Source of the DNA: Anaerolineae bacterium
GTDB lineage: Bacteria > Chloroflexota > Anaerolineae > Aggregatilineales > Phototrophicaceae
NCBI GenBank assembly: GCA_020849765.1
Contig: JADLAY010000035.1
Span: 1 to 64,000, forward strand
Direction of reading: 5' to 3'
DNA: 64,000 bases
Shown: one piece after another, positions 37,737 to 44,847 of the stretch
How the letters are laid out: every line of letters begins with the position of its first letter
Numbering within the stretch: position 1 is the first letter of the stretch
Position numbers and translations under genes: made by a program
Notes under the pieces: model-generated
What the model saw: the letters and a program-made list of their open reading frames with translations, nothing else
Told to the model about the DNA's origin: nothing
Databases searched by the model: none

Positions 37737-38545
37737 GAAGACAGCTTAGCACGGTCGGCATCCTTCTGGCGTTGTGCCTCGGCGCCTGCCAGACCGCTCC
37801 CAGCGCCACGCCCGATCCTTTCGCGGGGGTCGTGGAGGCCAAGCTCCTCGCGACGGTTGGGCTCACGGCGACGCCCGGTGAAGCAGAACGTCAGGCGACG
37901 GCAGCGGCGGTCGCGCAGCAGCCGGACATCATTCGCTCGACGCCCGTGCCCTCGCCGACACCCTACATCGGCGTCTTCCTGGGCGAGATCGGCGATTCGG
38001 TCGCGCCACAGCCCGCGCTCGATTCAGCTATCTTCATCACAGCCGCTCCGCTGACCGCTGCGACAGTCACTGCCGAAAGCTGCGTCAATGTCCCCGATGT
38101 GCGCTTCGGCACGGCATGGCAAGCGGAACCCGCCATCACATCCGCCTTGGGCTGCGCCGGGGAACCCGCCGTTAGTTTTGACGGCACGACGCAGATCTTC
38201 GAGAACGGCTTCATGGTCTTCATCCCCGGTGGCGAGATCTGGGCGATAGCGCCGGAAGTGCCGTCCGGGCGCTACTGGTATACGGCGGAGACGCCGCCCC
38301 CGCCACCGGAAGATATCCTCGCCCCGGAGGGGCTGCGGGTGCCGACGTTGGGTTTTGGAGCTGTGTGGGCGTCGCTGCCGAGCCTGCGCCAGACTCTCGG
38401 TTTTGCGCGCACCGATGAAAGCGCTGCGTCGGTGGTCGTTCAGCGTTTCATCGGCGGCACGTTGATGTTCGATGCCAGCGCCGGGCAGACGTTCGCCTTG
38501 CTCGGCAACAATCAGACGCAGGGGGCAGTCTATGGCCCTTATTGA
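37733..38545 (+). CDS. Lipoprotein with two LGFP-like repeats
   Basis: A 270-residue protein with a lipoprotein signal ([10 protein letters not shown], lipobox LGAC at residue 19). A Thr/Ala/Pro-rich stretch leads to two similar modules of about 55-60 residues. The first is [20 protein letters not shown] with [20 protein letters not shown] (about 115-180), and the second is [20 protein letters not shown] with [12 protein letters not shown] (about 205-265). These resemble LGFP-like repeats thought to bind cell-surface glycans. It overlaps the DUF2723 gene by four bases (ATGA), and its 3' end overlaps gatB by seven bases on the opposite strand. Confidence 0.7.
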
Positions 38546-39993
38546 TTGCGCAGTGCCTGGAGCTTCTGCGTCAGCAGTTCACGCACGACCTGCGGATTGC
38601 CGCGGCCTTTGAGCGCGCCCATGACCATGCCCATGATCGGCCCGAACAGCTTGTCTTCGCCCGCTGCGTAACGATCGAGCATGTCGCCTGCGCCCGCCAG
38701 TGCTTCGTCGATGGCGCCGCTGATGGCGTCCGTATCACTCACCTGTGCCAGACCCTTCTCTTTCACGATCTGATCGGGGTCGCCGCCGCTATCCCACATC
38801 TCGACGATCAGGGTCGCCGCGGTGTTCTTGTTGATCGTCCCGGCGTCGACGAGCTTGGCCAGTTTCGCCAGATTTGCGGCTGTGACGCGCGTTGGGATGT
38901 CCTCGCGCTCGATGCTGTCGCGGTTGCACAGGGCGAACAGGCTGCCGAGCAGCAGGTTGGCGGTCGTCTTCGCCTGAGCGCCCGCGGCCAGCACGTCCTC
39001 ATAATAGTGCGCGACGGCCTGCTCGACCGTGATCGTGTGCGCATCGTAATGGCTGAGGCCGAGCTCTTGCATGAAGCGGTCGCGCTTCACGTCCGGCAGT
39101 TCCGGCAGCCCACCGCGCACGCTCTCGACCCATTCCCAGCTGATCTCCAGGATAGGCAGGTCGGGTTCGGGGAAGTAGCGATATTCGTCTGCGCTCTCTT
39201 TGTAGCGCTGGACGACGGTGCGCTGGCGATTCTCGTCCCAGCCCATGGTCGCCTGGCGCACACCCTCGCCGTTCTCCCACGCTTTGATCTGGCGCTCGAT
39301 TTCGTAGTCGATCGAACGGTAGAGGCTGCGGATGCTGTTGAGATTCTTGACTTCGGTGCGCGTGCGGAAGCCGGTGTCATCCTTGTGCATAACGCTGACG
39401 TTGGCTTCCAGACGGAGGACGCCCTTACTCATATCGCCGCTGTTGACGCCCAGGTATTGCAGGATGCTGCGCAGCTTGCGTGCGTAGGCCTCGGCCTCTT
39501 CCGCGCTGTGGATGTCCGGCTCGGTGACGATCTCGAGCAGGGGGACGCCGGCGCGGTTGTAATCGACCAGGCTGTCGTCGTTGATGTGAGTCAGCTTGCC
39601 CGTGTCTTCTTCCAGGTGCGCGCGGCGAATGCGGATGTGCCGGGTCTCTCCGTTGTTCAGTTCGATGTCGACCCAGCCATTGACGCACAGCGGGCGGTCG
39701 TACTGGCTGATCTGGTAGCCCTTAGGCAGGTCCGGATAGAAGTAGCTCTTGCGCGCAAATTGGTTGACGGGCGGGATCTCGCAGTTGAGGGCCAGCCCGA
39801 CCATCATGGCGTATTCGACCGCCTGCATGTTGATGACGGGGAGCGTGCCGGGCAGTCCGAGCGATACCGGGTCGACGGCCGTATTCGGCGCAGCGGTCAC
39901 GCTGTCCACGACCGGACAATTCGAGAACATCTTGCTCTGGGTAAGCAGTTCGGCGTGAATCTCTAAGCCGATAATCGGTTTCCAATCGGACAT
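38539..39993 (-). CDS. gatB: Aspartyl/glutamyl-tRNA amidotransferase subunit B
   Basis: A 484-residue GatB. The signature [20 protein letters not shown] is at the N-terminus, followed by [40 protein letters not shown] and [11 protein letters not shown]. The C-terminal YqeY-like helical tail (about 335-484) ends with [20 protein letters not shown], which touches the tRNA. It is the kinase/tRNA-binding part of the GatCAB complex that makes Gln-tRNA or Asn-tRNA from misacylated tRNA. I use ATG 39993 (AGGTG eight bases upstream) over ATG 39999. gatA and gatC are not in the window. Confidence 0.96.
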
Positions 39994-40133
39994 GTCCATG
40001 GCACCTGTCGCATCGTGATTAGTGAGTGAAGAATGCTCAGAACTATACCACACAAACAGGCGTGGGGCGGGGCATAAATCCACATGGGCGAGATGCGGGA
40101 TGTGGTGTTTTTCAGACGAAGTTGAGCGGCCTG

Positions 40134-40958
40134 CTAACCCTCAATCGCCTTCAGAATCTGCTCGTATTCCGGTTGTTCAAGCAGTGCCCGGCGCATGTAA
40201 TCCTGCATCGGTTCGCTGGCACGCTCCATGGCCGCCCGGCACAGCTTCAACGCTGCATCATGATCGCCGCGCTCCCAGGCGATCAGCCCGCGGTTGAACG
40301 GAATCATCTGGTCGGTGGGTGTCAGCAGCCCGGCGGATGCGTAATCAGCGTCAGCGAATTCCAGTTGGCCGTTGCGACGCTGAGCGTCAGCGCGGGCGAG
40401 CAGCAGTCGAGCGCGGAAGCCATCGACAAAGCGATCGTCGGGTGTGGTCGTATCGGTCAGCATGGTCAGCGAATCGCTGTAGGAACGAGCGGCCAGTCCA
40501 TAGTCACCCGCCTGCGCAGCGATGTCGCCCATCCACTGCATCCAGCGCCAGGTCTTCGGCTGCTTGCGCGCGAGTTCCAGTGCGGAGTGCGTGTCACCGC
40601 GCGTCAGCAGCAAGCGCACGTGCTGTTCGGTCAGGCGATTGCGCTCGGTTGGCCCGCCAGCCAGATCGGTCGCTACCATCATGGCGCGAATCGCCGCCGC
40701 GAAATCGCTGAGCTGCTCGAAGATGATCGACTGCTCGACGTAATCGGCACTGGTCGGGTCGCTCAAACGCTCCAGGTCGAGCGCCGCGGCGCGCAGATGC
40801 TCTTCGTCGTTCAGTCGGCGGTAGATGGCCGCGCGCAGGCGCAGCGCTTCGTCCTCTGCATCCCCCGCGATCGCTTCGTCCAGGGTGGTCAACGCCTGGT
40901 CGAGTTCCCCTGCATCAATAAACGCCTGTGCTTTTTCAAGCGGCGTGTACGTCGTCAT
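40134..40958 (-). CDS. TPR-like helical repeat protein
   Basis: A 274-residue helical protein. TPR-like pairs are visible at the start ([20 protein letters not shown]), near residue 70 ([21 protein letters not shown]), around 115 ([19 protein letters not shown]) and near 240 ([20 protein letters not shown]). It is a protein-interaction scaffold of unknown partner. The start overlaps the stop of the histidine kinase gene by four bases, so the two are translationally coupled, and the kinase is the obvious candidate partner. Confidence 0.8.
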
Positions 40959-43360
40959 GCTTCTGCCTCCGTCAGTGTGTAGGCTTCGGACATGAGTTGA
41001 GGCAGAACGATAATAAAAGTGCTGCCTTGCCCCAATGTGCTGCTCACGTGGATTTCACCCCCGTGAAGCTGAATAATCTCACGCGCAATACTCAAGCCCA
41101 GACCTGTCCCCTGAACTTCGCTGGGCACGCGGAAAAACGGCTGGAAGACACTTTCCAGGTTTTCTTCGGAAATGCCGATGCCGTTGTCTTCGATCTCGAT
41201 CCTGGCGCAGGTGCCGAGCAAGGCATCGACGTTGTTCGGCAGCAGGCGCGCGGTAATCGTACCACCAGGCGCTGTGTAATTAATGGCGTTGATCAGCAGG
41301 TTGGTGATGACCTGGGCCAGACGCTTGTTATCGACGTAGGCCATGACGGGTGCGTCAGGTGTTTCATGGCGCAGTGTGATCGACTTGCGTTCCGCTTCTG
41401 CTCCCTGAAGATCGACCAGACCGGAAATGAACGGCCCCAGGTCGACATTCTGGCGATTCAGACTCATCAGGCTGCGCTCCAGGCGCGAGAGATCGAGCAT
41501 ATCCTCGACCAGTTCGCGCATGTTATCGACGACGGCCTCAAGCACGCCCAGATGATCGGCGGCCTTTTCCGGCTGCCGCCTCAGCAGGTAGAGACGGGTC
41601 TTCGCGTTCGTCAGCGGGGTGCGCAGCTCGTGCGAGGCATGGGCGACAAAGCGCGATCGCTGCTCAGCCAGAGCCTTCTCTTTGCTGATGTCACGCGCGA
41701 CGCCGACGAGGCCGATCAGCGTTCCTTGTGGATCGACCAGCCGTGCAGCGGAAATACTCGCCAGGAAGTAAGTGCCGTCCTTGCGCGGCACGTGAGCTTC
41801 AATCTGCCAGCGCGCCTGATTGCTCAGTCGCTTGACCACCGAGCGTGCCACGTCCGCAAATTTCTGCCCGTTCTGATCCTGCTGCATGAAGATCGGCGGG
41901 GCATCAACCAGCCATTCGTCGTCTTCGTAACCGGTCAGCGCGATCAAGGCTGCGTTGACGAAACGGACGCGCATACTGCCATTCACAGGCTCGGCGTAGA
42001 TGACTCCCTCCGTCATCGAGTCGAGGATGGCGTTGAGCTGGGCGCGCTCGTGCTCCAGTTCGGCGGTGCGCTCGCGGACGCGCGCCTCGAGCCGGGCGGC
42101 CTGATCGTTGATGCGGCGGTACATATCCGCATTGTTGAGCGCGATCGCGGCCTGATCGGCGAAAGCTTGCAGTCGCTCCGAATCGGCATCTGTGTATACG
42201 TTCGGCTGTTCGCTGTCAACATTCAGGAAGCCGATGGTGCGATTGCCCAGGTGAATCGGCGCGGTAATGTGCGAGCGAATCCATTCAAAGCCAGGGACAC
42301 GCTCCCAACGCGATTCCTTCTGCACGTCCGGGATGATGATGGGCGTGCCGGTTTCGATGACGATGCTCATGGTGTAGGTGGTGTCGATCGGCAAGCGGAG
42401 GTTTTCGATGATCGACATCTCAGCGCCGAGATCGCCGTAACCTTCGAGACGGCGTGTGCGCGCAACGCTGCCATCGACCAGCATGATGCTGGCGCCTCTG
42501 AACTCGATGATGTGCTGCATGTTGGCGAAAATGCGGTTGAGCACTTCGTCATGATCGAGGGTCTTGACGATGTCGGCAGCAATTTCGCGCAGCGCCTCGG
42601 CCATGGCTCGCTGGCGCGTCTCGGCGACCTGAGCCAGCTTTCGTTTGGTGACGTCGTGGATGATCATGCAGACGTAGCGCTGATCGCCGACTTCAATCGG
42701 CCCACTGAAGACAGCGATGTCGCGGCATTCCCCGTTGGCGAGGCGATGGCGCAGCGTGATATTGGTCGTCTGCAGCGGTTCCGTGTTTTTCTGCGCCGGG
42801 GCATCCAGGTCGGCCAATGACATCGTCATCAACTGCTTCTGTGGATAGCCGTAAAAGGCGTAGGCGGCGCGGTTTGCGTCGACGATGTTGCCCGTTTGCG
42901 GGTCGACCAGCAGCATGACGGCGCGTGATTCGTGAAACAGTTGGTGCGCACGCCGCTGGCTCTCGACCAGTTCCTGGCGTTGTTCCGCCATTTCGGCGAG
43001 ACGGCGAACACGATTGCGCAGAATGGCTTCGTGCGTGGGAAATAGACAGACGTCATCCGCACCGGCTTCGAATGCGGCGTCGATCCAGTTCGAATCCTGC
43101 GCGCCCACCATCAAGACCGGGATGGCAGCAGTCTGCTTGCCCGCCTTGATATGCGCGCACAGCTCAATTCCATCCCCATCGCTCAGGTTGTGACCCAGAA
43201 GGACGAGTGGAACCGGATAAGAATTGAGGATTTGCAGCGCCTTAGCTCCGTTCGATGTTCCGAACAGTTTCAATCCTTCATTGGAAAGCCAGGCGCGGAT
43301 GTCTGATAGTCGCTGATCGTCTCCATCCACAACAAGGATGGGCTTCTCTTGTAAATGCAA
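40955..43360 (-). CDS. Hybrid sensor histidine kinase with pseudo-receiver, PAS and GAF domains
   Basis: An 801-residue cytoplasmic protein with no clear TM segment. Residues 1-115 are a receiver-like domain, then a PAS domain (about 140-265, ANRAAYAFYGYPQKQL), a GAF domain (about 290-430, ITAPIHLGNRTIGFLNVDSE), a coiled linker, a second PAS (about 450-565) and HisKA with FVAHASHELRTPLTNAK. HATPase_c carries LLINAINYTAPGG, IEDNGIGISEENL and GTGLGLSIARE. In the receiver the acidic pocket is present (D12, D14, D15), but the phospho-acceptor Asp is Gly56, the conserved Thr is Gly86 and the Lys is Phe107. The start is TTG 43360 with AGGTG upstream. It is coupled to the TPR gene. Confidence 0.92.
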   Translation of the reverse strand: MHLQEKPILVVDGDDQRLSDIRAWLSNEGLKLFGTSNGAKALQILNSYPVPLVLLGHNLSDGDGIELCAHIKAGKQTAAIPVLMVGAQDSNWIDAAFEAGADDVCLFPTHEAILRNRVRRLAEMAEQRQELVESQRRAHQLFHESRAVMLLVDPQTGNIVDANRAAYAFYGYPQKQLMTMSLADLDAPAQKNTEPLQTTNITLRHRLANGECRDIAVFSGPIEVGDQRYVCMIIHDVTKRKLAQVAETRQRAMAEALREIAADIVKTLDHDEVLNRIFANMQHIIEFRGASIMLVDGSVARTRRLEGYGDLGAEMSIIENLRLPIDTTYTMSIVIETGTPIIIPDVQKESRWERVPGFEWIRSHITAPIHLGNRTIGFLNVDSEQPNVYTDADSERLQAFADQAAIALNNADMYRRINDQAARLEARVRERTAELEHERAQLNAILDSMTEGVIYAEPVNGSMRVRFVNAALIALTGYEDDEWLVDAPPIFMQQDQNGQKFADVARSVVKRLSNQARWQIEAHVPRKDGTYFLASISAARLVDPQGTLIGLVGVARDISKEKALAEQRSRFVAHASHELRTPLTNAKTRLYLLRRQPEKAADHLGVLEAVVDNMRELVEDMLDLSRLERSLMSLNRQNVDLGPFISGLVDLQGAEAERKSITLRHETPDAPVMAYVDNKRLAQVITNLLINAINYTAPGGTITARLLPNNVDALLGTCARIEIEDNGIGISEENLESVFQPFFRVPSEVQGTGLGLSIAREIIQLHGGEIHVSSTLGQGSTFIIVLPQLMSEAYTLTEAEA

Positions 43361-43566: not shown

Positions 43567-44727
43567 TCAGCCGTGCTGGAGCATGAAGCGATGCATGCGC
43601 TCCAGCGCGCGTTCGATGTTCTCGTCACTGTTGGCATAGCTGGCGCGGATGAAACCGGCGCCGCTTGCGCCGAACGCGCTGCCCGGCACGACAGCGACGC
43701 GCGCATCCAGCAACAAACGCTCGCAGAATTCCTCGTCCGTCATGCCTGTGACGCGAATATCGGGAAACGCATAGAACGCGCCGCGCGGCTCAAAGCAGGT
43801 CAGACCGATCTGGTTGAAGCCATCGACGATCAATTTGCGGCGGCGATCATACTGCGATTGCATGTGCTGCACGTCGTCTTCGCCATGTTCGAGCGCTTCC
43901 AGAGCTGCGCGCTGACCCATGGTCGGCGCGGACATGATCAGGTACTGATGCAGTTTGAAGATGGCTTCCATCAGATAATGTGGCGCGGTCACGTAACCGA
44001 TGCGCCAACCGGTCATCGCGAAGGCCTTGCTCATGCCGCTGAGCACGATCGTGCGCTCGTACATGCCGGGCAGCGTCGCGAAGTTGATGTGATCGATGCC
44101 GTAGACGAGCCGCTCGTAGATCTCGTCCGAGATGACGACGAGATCGTACTTCTCCGCGATGGCGGCGACCTGCTGCATGTGTTCGCAGGTCAGCACAGCG
44201 CCGGTGGGGTTGTTGGGGTAGCTGATGAGGATGGCTTTCGTGCGTGGCGTGATCACCTGCTCAAGCGCTTCGCTGGTGACCTGGAATTCGTGCTCGACGC
44301 TGGTATGTACGGGAACCGGAACGCCGCCGACCATTTCCACGGCCGCCGCATTCGAGACGAAACATGGCTCGACAACCAGCACTTCATCGCCCGGCTCGAC
44401 GACCGCCTTGAGCGCCAACCAGAGACCTTCGCTGACGCCGACCGTGACCAGTACTTCGGTCTTCGGGTCATAATTCAGCCGGTAGAGGCGGTGAACGTAA
44501 TCGCTGATTGCGCGCCGCAGTTCGATCAGGCCCGCGTTGGCTGTGTAGCCGGTTTCGCCGCGCCGCATCGAATCGATGCCTGCATCCATGATGTGATTGG
44601 GCGTCACAAAGTTCGGTTCGCCGATGCCCAGGGTCACCACGTCGTCCATCGTAGCGGCGATGTCGAAGTACTTACGAATGCCTGACGGACGCAGTTCCTG
44701 GATTTTGGTGGCGACGAAGTTACGCAT
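43567..44727 (-). CDS. Class I/II pyridoxal-phosphate aminotransferase
   Basis: A 386-residue fold type I enzyme. The N-terminal VVTLGIGEPNFVTP and ILISYPNNPTGAVLTCEH (with the Asn contacting PLP) are typical of the AspC/MalY-related branch. VVISDEIYERLVYG carries the Asp that binds the pyridine nitrogen, and IVLSGMSKAFAMTGWRIGY carries the PLP lysine and the following Arg region. It probably transfers amino groups between amino acids and 2-oxoglutarate; the substrate (aspartate, aromatic or alanine) is unclear. ATG 44727 is used because AGGG precedes it and the longer frame adds a non-conserved stretch. Confidence 0.9.
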   Translation of the reverse strand: MRNFVATKIQELRPSGIRKYFDIAATMDDVVTLGIGEPNFVTPNHIMDAGIDSMRRGETGYTANAGLIELRRAISDYVHRLYRLNYDPKTEVLVTVGVSEGLWLALKAVVEPGDEVLVVEPCFVSNAAAVEMVGGVPVPVHTSVEHEFQVTSEALEQVITPRTKAILISYPNNPTGAVLTCEHMQQVAAIAEKYDLVVISDEIYERLVYGIDHINFATLPGMYERTIVLSGMSKAFAMTGWRIGYVTAPHYLMEAIFKLHQYLIMSAPTMGQRAALEALEHGEDDVQHMQSQYDRRRKLIVDGFNQIGLTCFEPRGAFYAFPDIRVTGMTDEEFCERLLLDARVAVVPGSAFGASGAGFIRASYANSDENIERALERMHRFMLQHG

Positions 44728-44847
44728 GGTGATGCCCTGGTTGCAAAAGTGCCAAAAAAGCTCCACGAATTATGCATGAATAAACCAAAACAACATCGCC
44801 CATTTGGTAGCAAATTTGCACCCTCTGATCCGACACTGTGTACGAAA

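Follow-up and report, generated by a model that had tools for sequence, protein, structure and literature searches.

Pseudo-receivers (PsR), also termed aspartate-less receivers (ALR), match the receiver family PF00072 with the acceptor aspartate and other catalytic residues missing, and the cited part of PMC7010744 proposes that they form a large class of input domains of kinases which has gone unrecognised. A 2025 perspective (PMC12632262, in the passages cited here) describes as a mystery how bacterial pseudo-receivers are switched in the absence of phosphate. In these passages, the pseudo-receivers of ShkA and CikA are described as inhibiting kinase autophosphorylation, with cyclic di-GMP (c-di-GMP) relieving ShkA; the CikA domain is reported to bind KaiB and quinones. 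With the exception of four named proteins, the dimer interfaces of pseudo-receivers are reported there to include a portion of alpha4-beta5-alpha5. In Myxococcus, FrzS, which consists of a receiver and a coiled coil, is bound at its pseudo-receiver by the TPR protein SgmX (PMC11580455, in part). In our study, a stretch of 64,000 nucleotides from an Anaerolineae bacterium (contig JADLAY010000035.1, positions 1 to 64,000; hereafter the window) was analysed for a sensor histidine kinase which begins with a domain of this type. Judged from its residues and its predicted fold, the domain is a true pseudo-receiver, i.e. a receiver fold without the phospho-chemistry. Moreover, in the alignments its degraded state is common to the related kinases which were found and is no accident of the window gene. 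The features on which this rests are as follows.

40955..43360, minus strand: sensor histidine kinase of 801 residues with a TTG start and the order pseudo-receiver-PAS-GAF-PAS-HisKA-HATPase_c (open reading frame and Pfam)
43007..43339, minus strand: pseudo-receiver, residues 8-118 (PF00072 match, register and AlphaFold2 model)
43193-43195, minus strand: Gly56, at the acceptor position (register from alignments)
43103-43105, minus strand: Gly86, at the threonine position (register from alignments)
43040-43042, minus strand: Phe107, at the lysine position (register from alignments)

The Response_reg (PF00072) model matched residues 8-118 with 46.8 bits, the cut-off being 30.2. The register of the catalytic positions was taken from 28 pairwise alignments of the window domain with intact receivers of its own genome (28 of the 30 in the set; L099 and L123 were left out). 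The column of the acceptor aspartate fell on Gly56 in 27 of these alignments and on a gap in the remaining one. The threonine column was placed on Gly86 in 18, on Val85 in eight and on Met84 in two alignments, never on serine or threonine, and the lysine column on Phe107 in 23, on a gap in four and on His110 in one, never on lysine. An earlier note on this DNA had named Gly56, Gly86 and Phe107 at these three positions, and the alignments bear this out; a shift of register restoring the aspartate, which the note had given as the finding that would overturn its claim, did not appear and is ruled out, since none of the 28 alignments puts an aspartate there. On the other hand, the acidic pocket which the note took to be kept is only half present: the first acid (DD1) is Asp12 in 27/28 alignments (Asp14 in 1/28), whereas the second (DD2) corresponds to Gly13 in 24/28, Asp14 in 3/28 and Asp15 in 1/28, so that the pocket is broken. 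Acceptor, threonine and lysine are all absent from the window domain, and most likely the second pocket acid is gone as well. As a control, the weakest-scoring 35 of the other PF00072 matches of the genome (119 in total with the window domain included) were inspected, and these keep the acceptor aspartate in 34 cases and all five residues in 23. Seven other weak receiver matches of the same genome than that of the window (L153-L155, L157, L158, L160 and L187) hold one to three of the five residues, with the acceptor aspartate in six.

Relatives of the kinase and of the TPR protein encoded next to it were sought in 61 genomes, and TPR relatives then in 98 genomes of the Anaerolineae family; two of the relatives (G013 and G012) are placed in the genus of the window. 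The fetched loci, which all counts below cover, hold 37 kinase-related open reading frames (BLAST E < 1e-30), and a receiver-like N terminus was found in 26 of them. Eleven lie outside the receiver alignment, namely L065, which is cut by the contig start, the fragments L081 and L087_3529, and L079 and L088, both starting at PAS, together with L093, which has an apparent half receiver at its start, stands outside the neighbourhood described below and has no TPR gene in the 4.3 kb downstream. The other five (L073, L131, L133, L134 and L135) are syntenic kinases of part of one genus (g13) in which a hydrophobic N-terminal region, identified by eye, replaces the pseudo-receiver. L094, with a long branch and no adjoining aminotransferase or TPR gene, is counted in the 26 and omitted wherever 25 are given, and L148-L150 stand outside the 26. 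Among the weaker members, L086 has an E value of 0.055 with the receiver profile, L070 is missed by Pfam at 0.01, and L136 scores 28.6 bits, below the Pfam cut-off of 30.2. Two members have short or broken frames: in L082:3628-4953 (genome G007) the kinase is short and a stop lies inside the TPR frame, and in L087:3529-5975 (G010) the kinase is split over two frames which overlap, with a short TPR gene beside it, in either case by decay or assembly error.

Across the 26 domains, DD1 is kept in 6, DD2 in 9, the acceptor aspartate in 12, threonine or serine in 7 and lysine in 2. Counted by domain, none of the five residues is kept in 2, one in 13, two in 10 and three in 1, and no receiver-bearing relative keeps four or five. 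The metal triad is complete in 0/25 and in none of the 26 either. An intact receiver as the normal state of the family is ruled out by these counts (0/26), and so is a recent decay private to the window gene, G013 and the wider family being equally degraded. The earlier note claimed that the usual route of phosphorylation is closed to the domain. The residues of the domain itself support this well, and so do 25 relatives, all of them without an intact site. That it is still phosphorylated or modified at some other residue, as a weak receiver, is barely credible: Asp12, Asp14 and Asp15 do remain and the family holds the acceptor aspartate in 12/26, but the window domain lacks acceptor, threonine, lysine and, in most alignments, DD2.

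The AlphaFold2 model of the window receiver has a mean predicted local distance difference test (pLDDT) score of 95.8 and the (beta-alpha)5 order, with alpha5 spanning residues 111-134 and extending towards the PAS domain. The input alignment had 57 sequences (29 receiver-like domains of the kinase set, the window's included, and 28 intact receivers), and because the intact receivers push the model towards a receiver fold, the model is taken as support for this fold and not as proof. Its best structural match was PleD (9g86, Z 22.0, root-mean-square deviation (rmsd) 1.4, 131 residues aligned), which shares the top place with several receivers scoring within 1 of it. Another high score was that of 3t6k, Caur_3799 of Chloroflexus (Z 21.4, rmsd 1.2, 121 aligned). 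Recognition by PF00072, absence of the acceptor aspartate and a receiver fold, the last by prediction, are thus found together, as in described pseudo-receivers.

The rest of the kinase is laid out as below.

42959..43030, minus strand: helix alpha5 of the pseudo-receiver with its linker extension towards PAS, residues 111-134 (secondary structure of the model)
42797..42946, minus strand: first PAS, residues 139-188 as matched by PAS_8, the domain being probably longer (Pfam)
42137..42559, minus strand: GAF, residues 268-408 (Pfam)
41687..42040, minus strand: second PAS, residues 441-558 (Pfam)
41477..41662, minus strand: HisKA, residues 567-628, with SHELRTPL at 576-583 and His577 (Pfam and motif)
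40997..41332, minus strand: HATPase_c, residues 677-788, with NLLINAINYT at 687, DNGIGI at 725 and GTGLGLSI at 751 (Pfam and motif)

The kinase motifs are complete, with the phospho-acceptor histidine in HisKA and the HATPase boxes, which go by the names N, G1 and G2, as expected of a HisKA histidine kinase. No hydrophobic or membrane segment is present in the kinase (best 19-residue Kyte-Doolittle mean 1.09), in agreement with the earlier note, and from its sequence the protein is soluble. Its only receiver match is the N-terminal one, with no C-terminal receiver detected by Pfam. A PF00072 profile search gave no second receiver match, hence no linked response regulator, on the 104-kb contig of the window (C35); because no other receiver domain was found there, the kinase looks orphan, with its response regulator elsewhere.

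We propose, with evenly balanced confidence, that the pseudo-receiver is a phosphorylation-free N-terminal input module which dimerises or docks and is joined to PAS through alpha5. As such, it would act independently of phosphorylation, being either constitutive or set by a partner, and its alpha4-beta5-alpha5 side would be the surface for dimerising or for docking of the partner. The long helix formed by alpha5 and the linker would relay the state of the pseudo-receiver to PAS-GAF-PAS, thereby setting HisKA autophosphorylation, the phosphate then probably passing to a response regulator encoded elsewhere. Binding of a ligand or of a partner, as the earlier note suggested, may be involved, which is reasonable by the precedent of ShkA, CikA and FrzS. 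For the family, which belongs largely to one Anaerolineae-family neighbourhood, it can be suggested tentatively, at clearly less than even confidence, that a phosphorylation-free receiver serves as front-end switch; its chemistry would have been lost several times independently while the alpha1/alpha4/alpha5 frame was kept, and it would read the state of proteins in place of phosphate, be it that of its own dimer or that of the TPR and coiled-coil proteins encoded with it.

The pattern of column variability is consistent with such a frame. Compared with the intact receivers, variability rises by 2.55 bits in the five catalytic columns and by 0.36 on average in the other 106, of which four reach the least-relaxed catalytic column. 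Relaxation is strongest in the beta3-alpha3 loop (1.28) and in the stretch from beta5 to alpha5 with the lysine site (1.29), and weakest in alpha1 (0.05), alpha5 (0.05) and alpha4 (0.12). Pro81, Gly100, Asp103 and Arg117 stand out as conserved residues, in 24, 25, 22 and 23 of the 26 domains respectively. This pattern also bears on the possibility that the pseudo-receiver is a small-molecule sensor comparable to ShkA with c-di-GMP or CikA with quinone, which we regard as doubtful. Precedent for it exists (cited parts of PMC12632262, and of PMC7010744 for pseudo-receivers as a large kinase-input class), but one shared pocket ligand should fix some residues, and across the relatives hardly any constraint is seen in the columns of the former active site (lysine column 3.67 bits); a ligand on another face, or ligands differing between the relatives, could fit nevertheless.

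A 27-row tree of the kinase core, without the short or broken frames of L082 and L087, was used to follow the acceptor. The states aspartate kept (15 rows) and aspartate lost (12 rows) require 7 changes, at least 5 of them forced by well-supported branches, and we infer that these were losses and not gains. A single clean origin of the aspartate loss is unsupported on this tree. A single-clade origin of the syntenic kinases was likewise rejected, the synteny label needing 6 changes with at least 3 forced when the rows of G019, G029 and G016, later seen to carry N-terminal receiver-like domains, are labelled non-syntenic. These three kinases lie outside the neighbourhood; by eye, all have the acceptor aspartate, and G029 additionally has lysine at the lysine site.

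Several points weigh against the proposed reading. The label for the aspartate is no more than mildly scattered on the tree, shuffled labels averaging 9.2 changes with 50 of 500 as low as 7. The acceptor aspartate is held by 12 of the 26 domains and, by eye, by the three further kinases just named, so that some of these domains may be weakly phosphorylated. At least seven related kinases (L073, L079, L088, L131, L133, L134 and L135) are without the domain, and because of this the pseudo-receiver is not essential to the kinase. Further, the relaxation figures set relatives drawn from many genomes against paralogues within a single genome and are to be taken lightly, and the contrast between a less relaxed C-terminal and a more relaxed N-terminal part is weak (permutation p 0.043).

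The window gene (G000) and its G013 homologue are both 2,406 nucleotides long, and their receivers share 57.7% amino acid identity, with proportions of nonsynonymous (pN) and synonymous (pS) differences of 0.238 and 0.787, respectively. These proportions are quoted in place of the corresponding rate ratio (dN/dS) as the synonymous sites are saturated in every domain of the kinase except a short linker. The low pN against the saturated pS indicates that the receiver domain is constrained. At the same time, no other annotated domain of the kinase is conserved so poorly (57.7% against 66-94%, HisKA being at 93.5%), and this, together with the several relatives lacking it and the broken or short kinase frames in G007 and G010, would suit a decaying passenger without function. 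Such a passenger is nevertheless very improbable in view of the equal gene lengths, the pN far below pS, the fold predicted with high pLDDT from an alignment that includes intact receivers, and the way in which 26 related kinases, separated by long distances, have retained the domain as its catalytic columns drifted.

The genes around the kinase are given next, all of them lying on the same strand of the window.

40955..40958, minus strand: ATGA, the 4-nucleotide overlap of the kinase stop with the TPR start (open reading frames)
40134..40958, minus strand: TPR protein of 274 residues with 16 helices in its model (open reading frame, Pfam and model)
43567..44766, minus strand: aminotransferase reading frame upstream, a recurrent neighbour (NCBIfam on the G013 homologue)
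38539..40083, minus strand: gatB reading frame downstream, a recurrent neighbour (NCBIfam on the G013 homologue)

The identity of gatB is taken from the G013 homologue, which is above the cut-off of the NCBIfam GatB models; the aminotransferase homologue of G013 is matched by NCBIfam models below their cut-offs among the matches listed. The TPR protein is recognised by TPR_16 (37.0 bits, cut-off 32.7) and TPR_2 (30.3, cut-off 27), other TPR models staying below their cut-offs, and its model (pLDDT 95.0) matches the CTPR structure 8chy with Z 21.1, rmsd 5.1 and 245 residues aligned, as expected of a TPR superhelix.

The order aminotransferase, kinase, (coiled-coil), TPR and gatB recurs around the relatives, with members sometimes missing. 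An aminotransferase is upstream of 19 of the 26 receiver-bearing kinases, and 24 have an aminotransferase or a TPR gene or both, neither being present in the DNA read for L092 and L094. Within 1.1 kb downstream on the same strand, 22/26 have a TPR-type gene (the copies of L090 and L087 being short), a count biased upwards by the choice of loci, L061-L088 and L126-L145 having been fetched through TPR homologues and L089-L094 through kinases. In the subset of 16 which were also listed by the kinase similarity search, 12 have it (short in G011 and G010), and no TPR gene was found in the DNA read downstream for the other four (G003, G008, G009 and G024). The kinase and TPR genes overlap by 4 nucleotides in six loci (L061, L062, L065, L074, L086 and L095). 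Translational coupling of the TPR protein, as claimed by the earlier note, is consistent with the ATGA overlap, the coupling itself being deduced from it.

These linkages, the SgmX-FrzS precedent (PMC11580455 and PMC12632262, in the parts cited) and the presence of FrzS (2i6f) at rank 16 of the Foldseek list of the receiver model could suggest that the TPR protein encoded alongside attaches to the pseudo-receiver and so gates the kinase. We consider this unlikely, as six receiver-less kinases also precede a TPR gene (L073 and L079, listed by the kinase search as well, and L131, L133, L134 and L135, to which the TPR gene led), a kinase is missing beside many TPR homologues, the receiver-bearing kinases of G003, G008 and G009 are among those lacking a TPR gene downstream, and conservation in G013 is far higher for the TPR protein (88%) than for the receiver (57.7%). 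The receiver-less kinases rule out a fixed tie between the TPR gene and the pseudo-receiver, and since they too precede the TPR gene, the link is a property of the kinase or of the locus and not of the pseudo-receiver. Along with the proposed input module, the TPR protein would probably serve as a scaffold, either for the kinase or for other locus products, and would not be a partner reserved for the pseudo-receiver.

Some further observations concern this neighbourhood. In G001 a kinase lacking the receiver lies just before the end of the contig, where a TPR fragment is found. L074, L129 and L132, from three genera, have very long pseudo-receiver kinases (1,509-1,582 residues) upstream of the TPR gene. 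A protein of about 210-230 residues, longer in a few cases, often stands just before the TPR gene in the relatives and is absent from the window locus; its copy in L063 gave no Pfam or NCBIfam match, and the label coiled-coil comes from its look alone. It occurs at the following places.

L063:5112-5813, and also L034, L066, L073, L078, L081, L126, L128 and L131: protein of about 210-230 residues before the TPR gene
L133-L135, L139 and L142-L145: further loci with this protein

Pseudo-receiver input domains of kinases are a known kind, and the apparent repeated loss within one family is the interesting part. Related kinases with several separate losses of catalytic residues, together with their domain-less relatives, offer ready-made comparisons within one kinase background. 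If the proposed reading is true, they would be a natural replicate series for the change from a receiver to a pure protein-protein switch; even if the case is ordinary, a well-defined set of N-terminal pseudo-receiver kinases from a little-studied bacterial class is obtained. Within the library covered, our literature search found no publication joining Chloroflexi, pseudo-receiver and histidine kinase, and none joining histidine kinase, 'TPR protein' and pseudo-receiver.

CikA and KaiA of Synechococcus have pseudo-receiver folds in signalling proteins, and CikA is a kinase, as here. The pseudo-receiver of CikA is C-terminal, whereas that of the window kinase is N-terminal. KaiA is not known to be a kinase and has its C-terminal domain after the pseudo-receiver, whereas in the window protein PAS-GAF-PAS-HisKA-HATPase follows. 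ShkA of Caulobacter is likewise a histidine kinase containing a pseudo-receiver, for which a role as kinase input domain was proposed (cited part of PMC7010744); however, this pseudo-receiver stands after the ATPase and before a C-terminal true receiver, whereas the window kinase has it at the N terminus, has no C-terminal receiver and has PAS-GAF-PAS separating the pseudo-receiver from HisKA. PleD of Caulobacter (receiver-PsR-GGDEF) is the top structural and the top profile match of the window domain, but the match is to its first, true receiver, and the PleD output is a cyclase (PMC12632262, in part). The FrzS-SgmX pair combines a pseudo-receiver and a TPR protein as in this locus, although FrzS is not a kinase in the passages cited, and the kinase-TPR linkage, which is seen here at the level of genes, is present also without the pseudo-receiver. 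In the cited part of the ALR survey, glycine makes up 11% of the acceptor substitutions and 70% of the domains have a basic residue at the lysine position (PMC4395418), and the PsR averages given in PMC12632262, as far as cited, are about 65% each for aspartate, threonine and lysine and 47% for the Y-T pair. The window family is lower, with a basic residue at the lysine position in 5/25 and the Y-T pair, present in 28/28 intact receivers, in 0/25. Hence, as its rates of kept residues fall below the published averages, this family is degraded beyond the usual pseudo-receivers.

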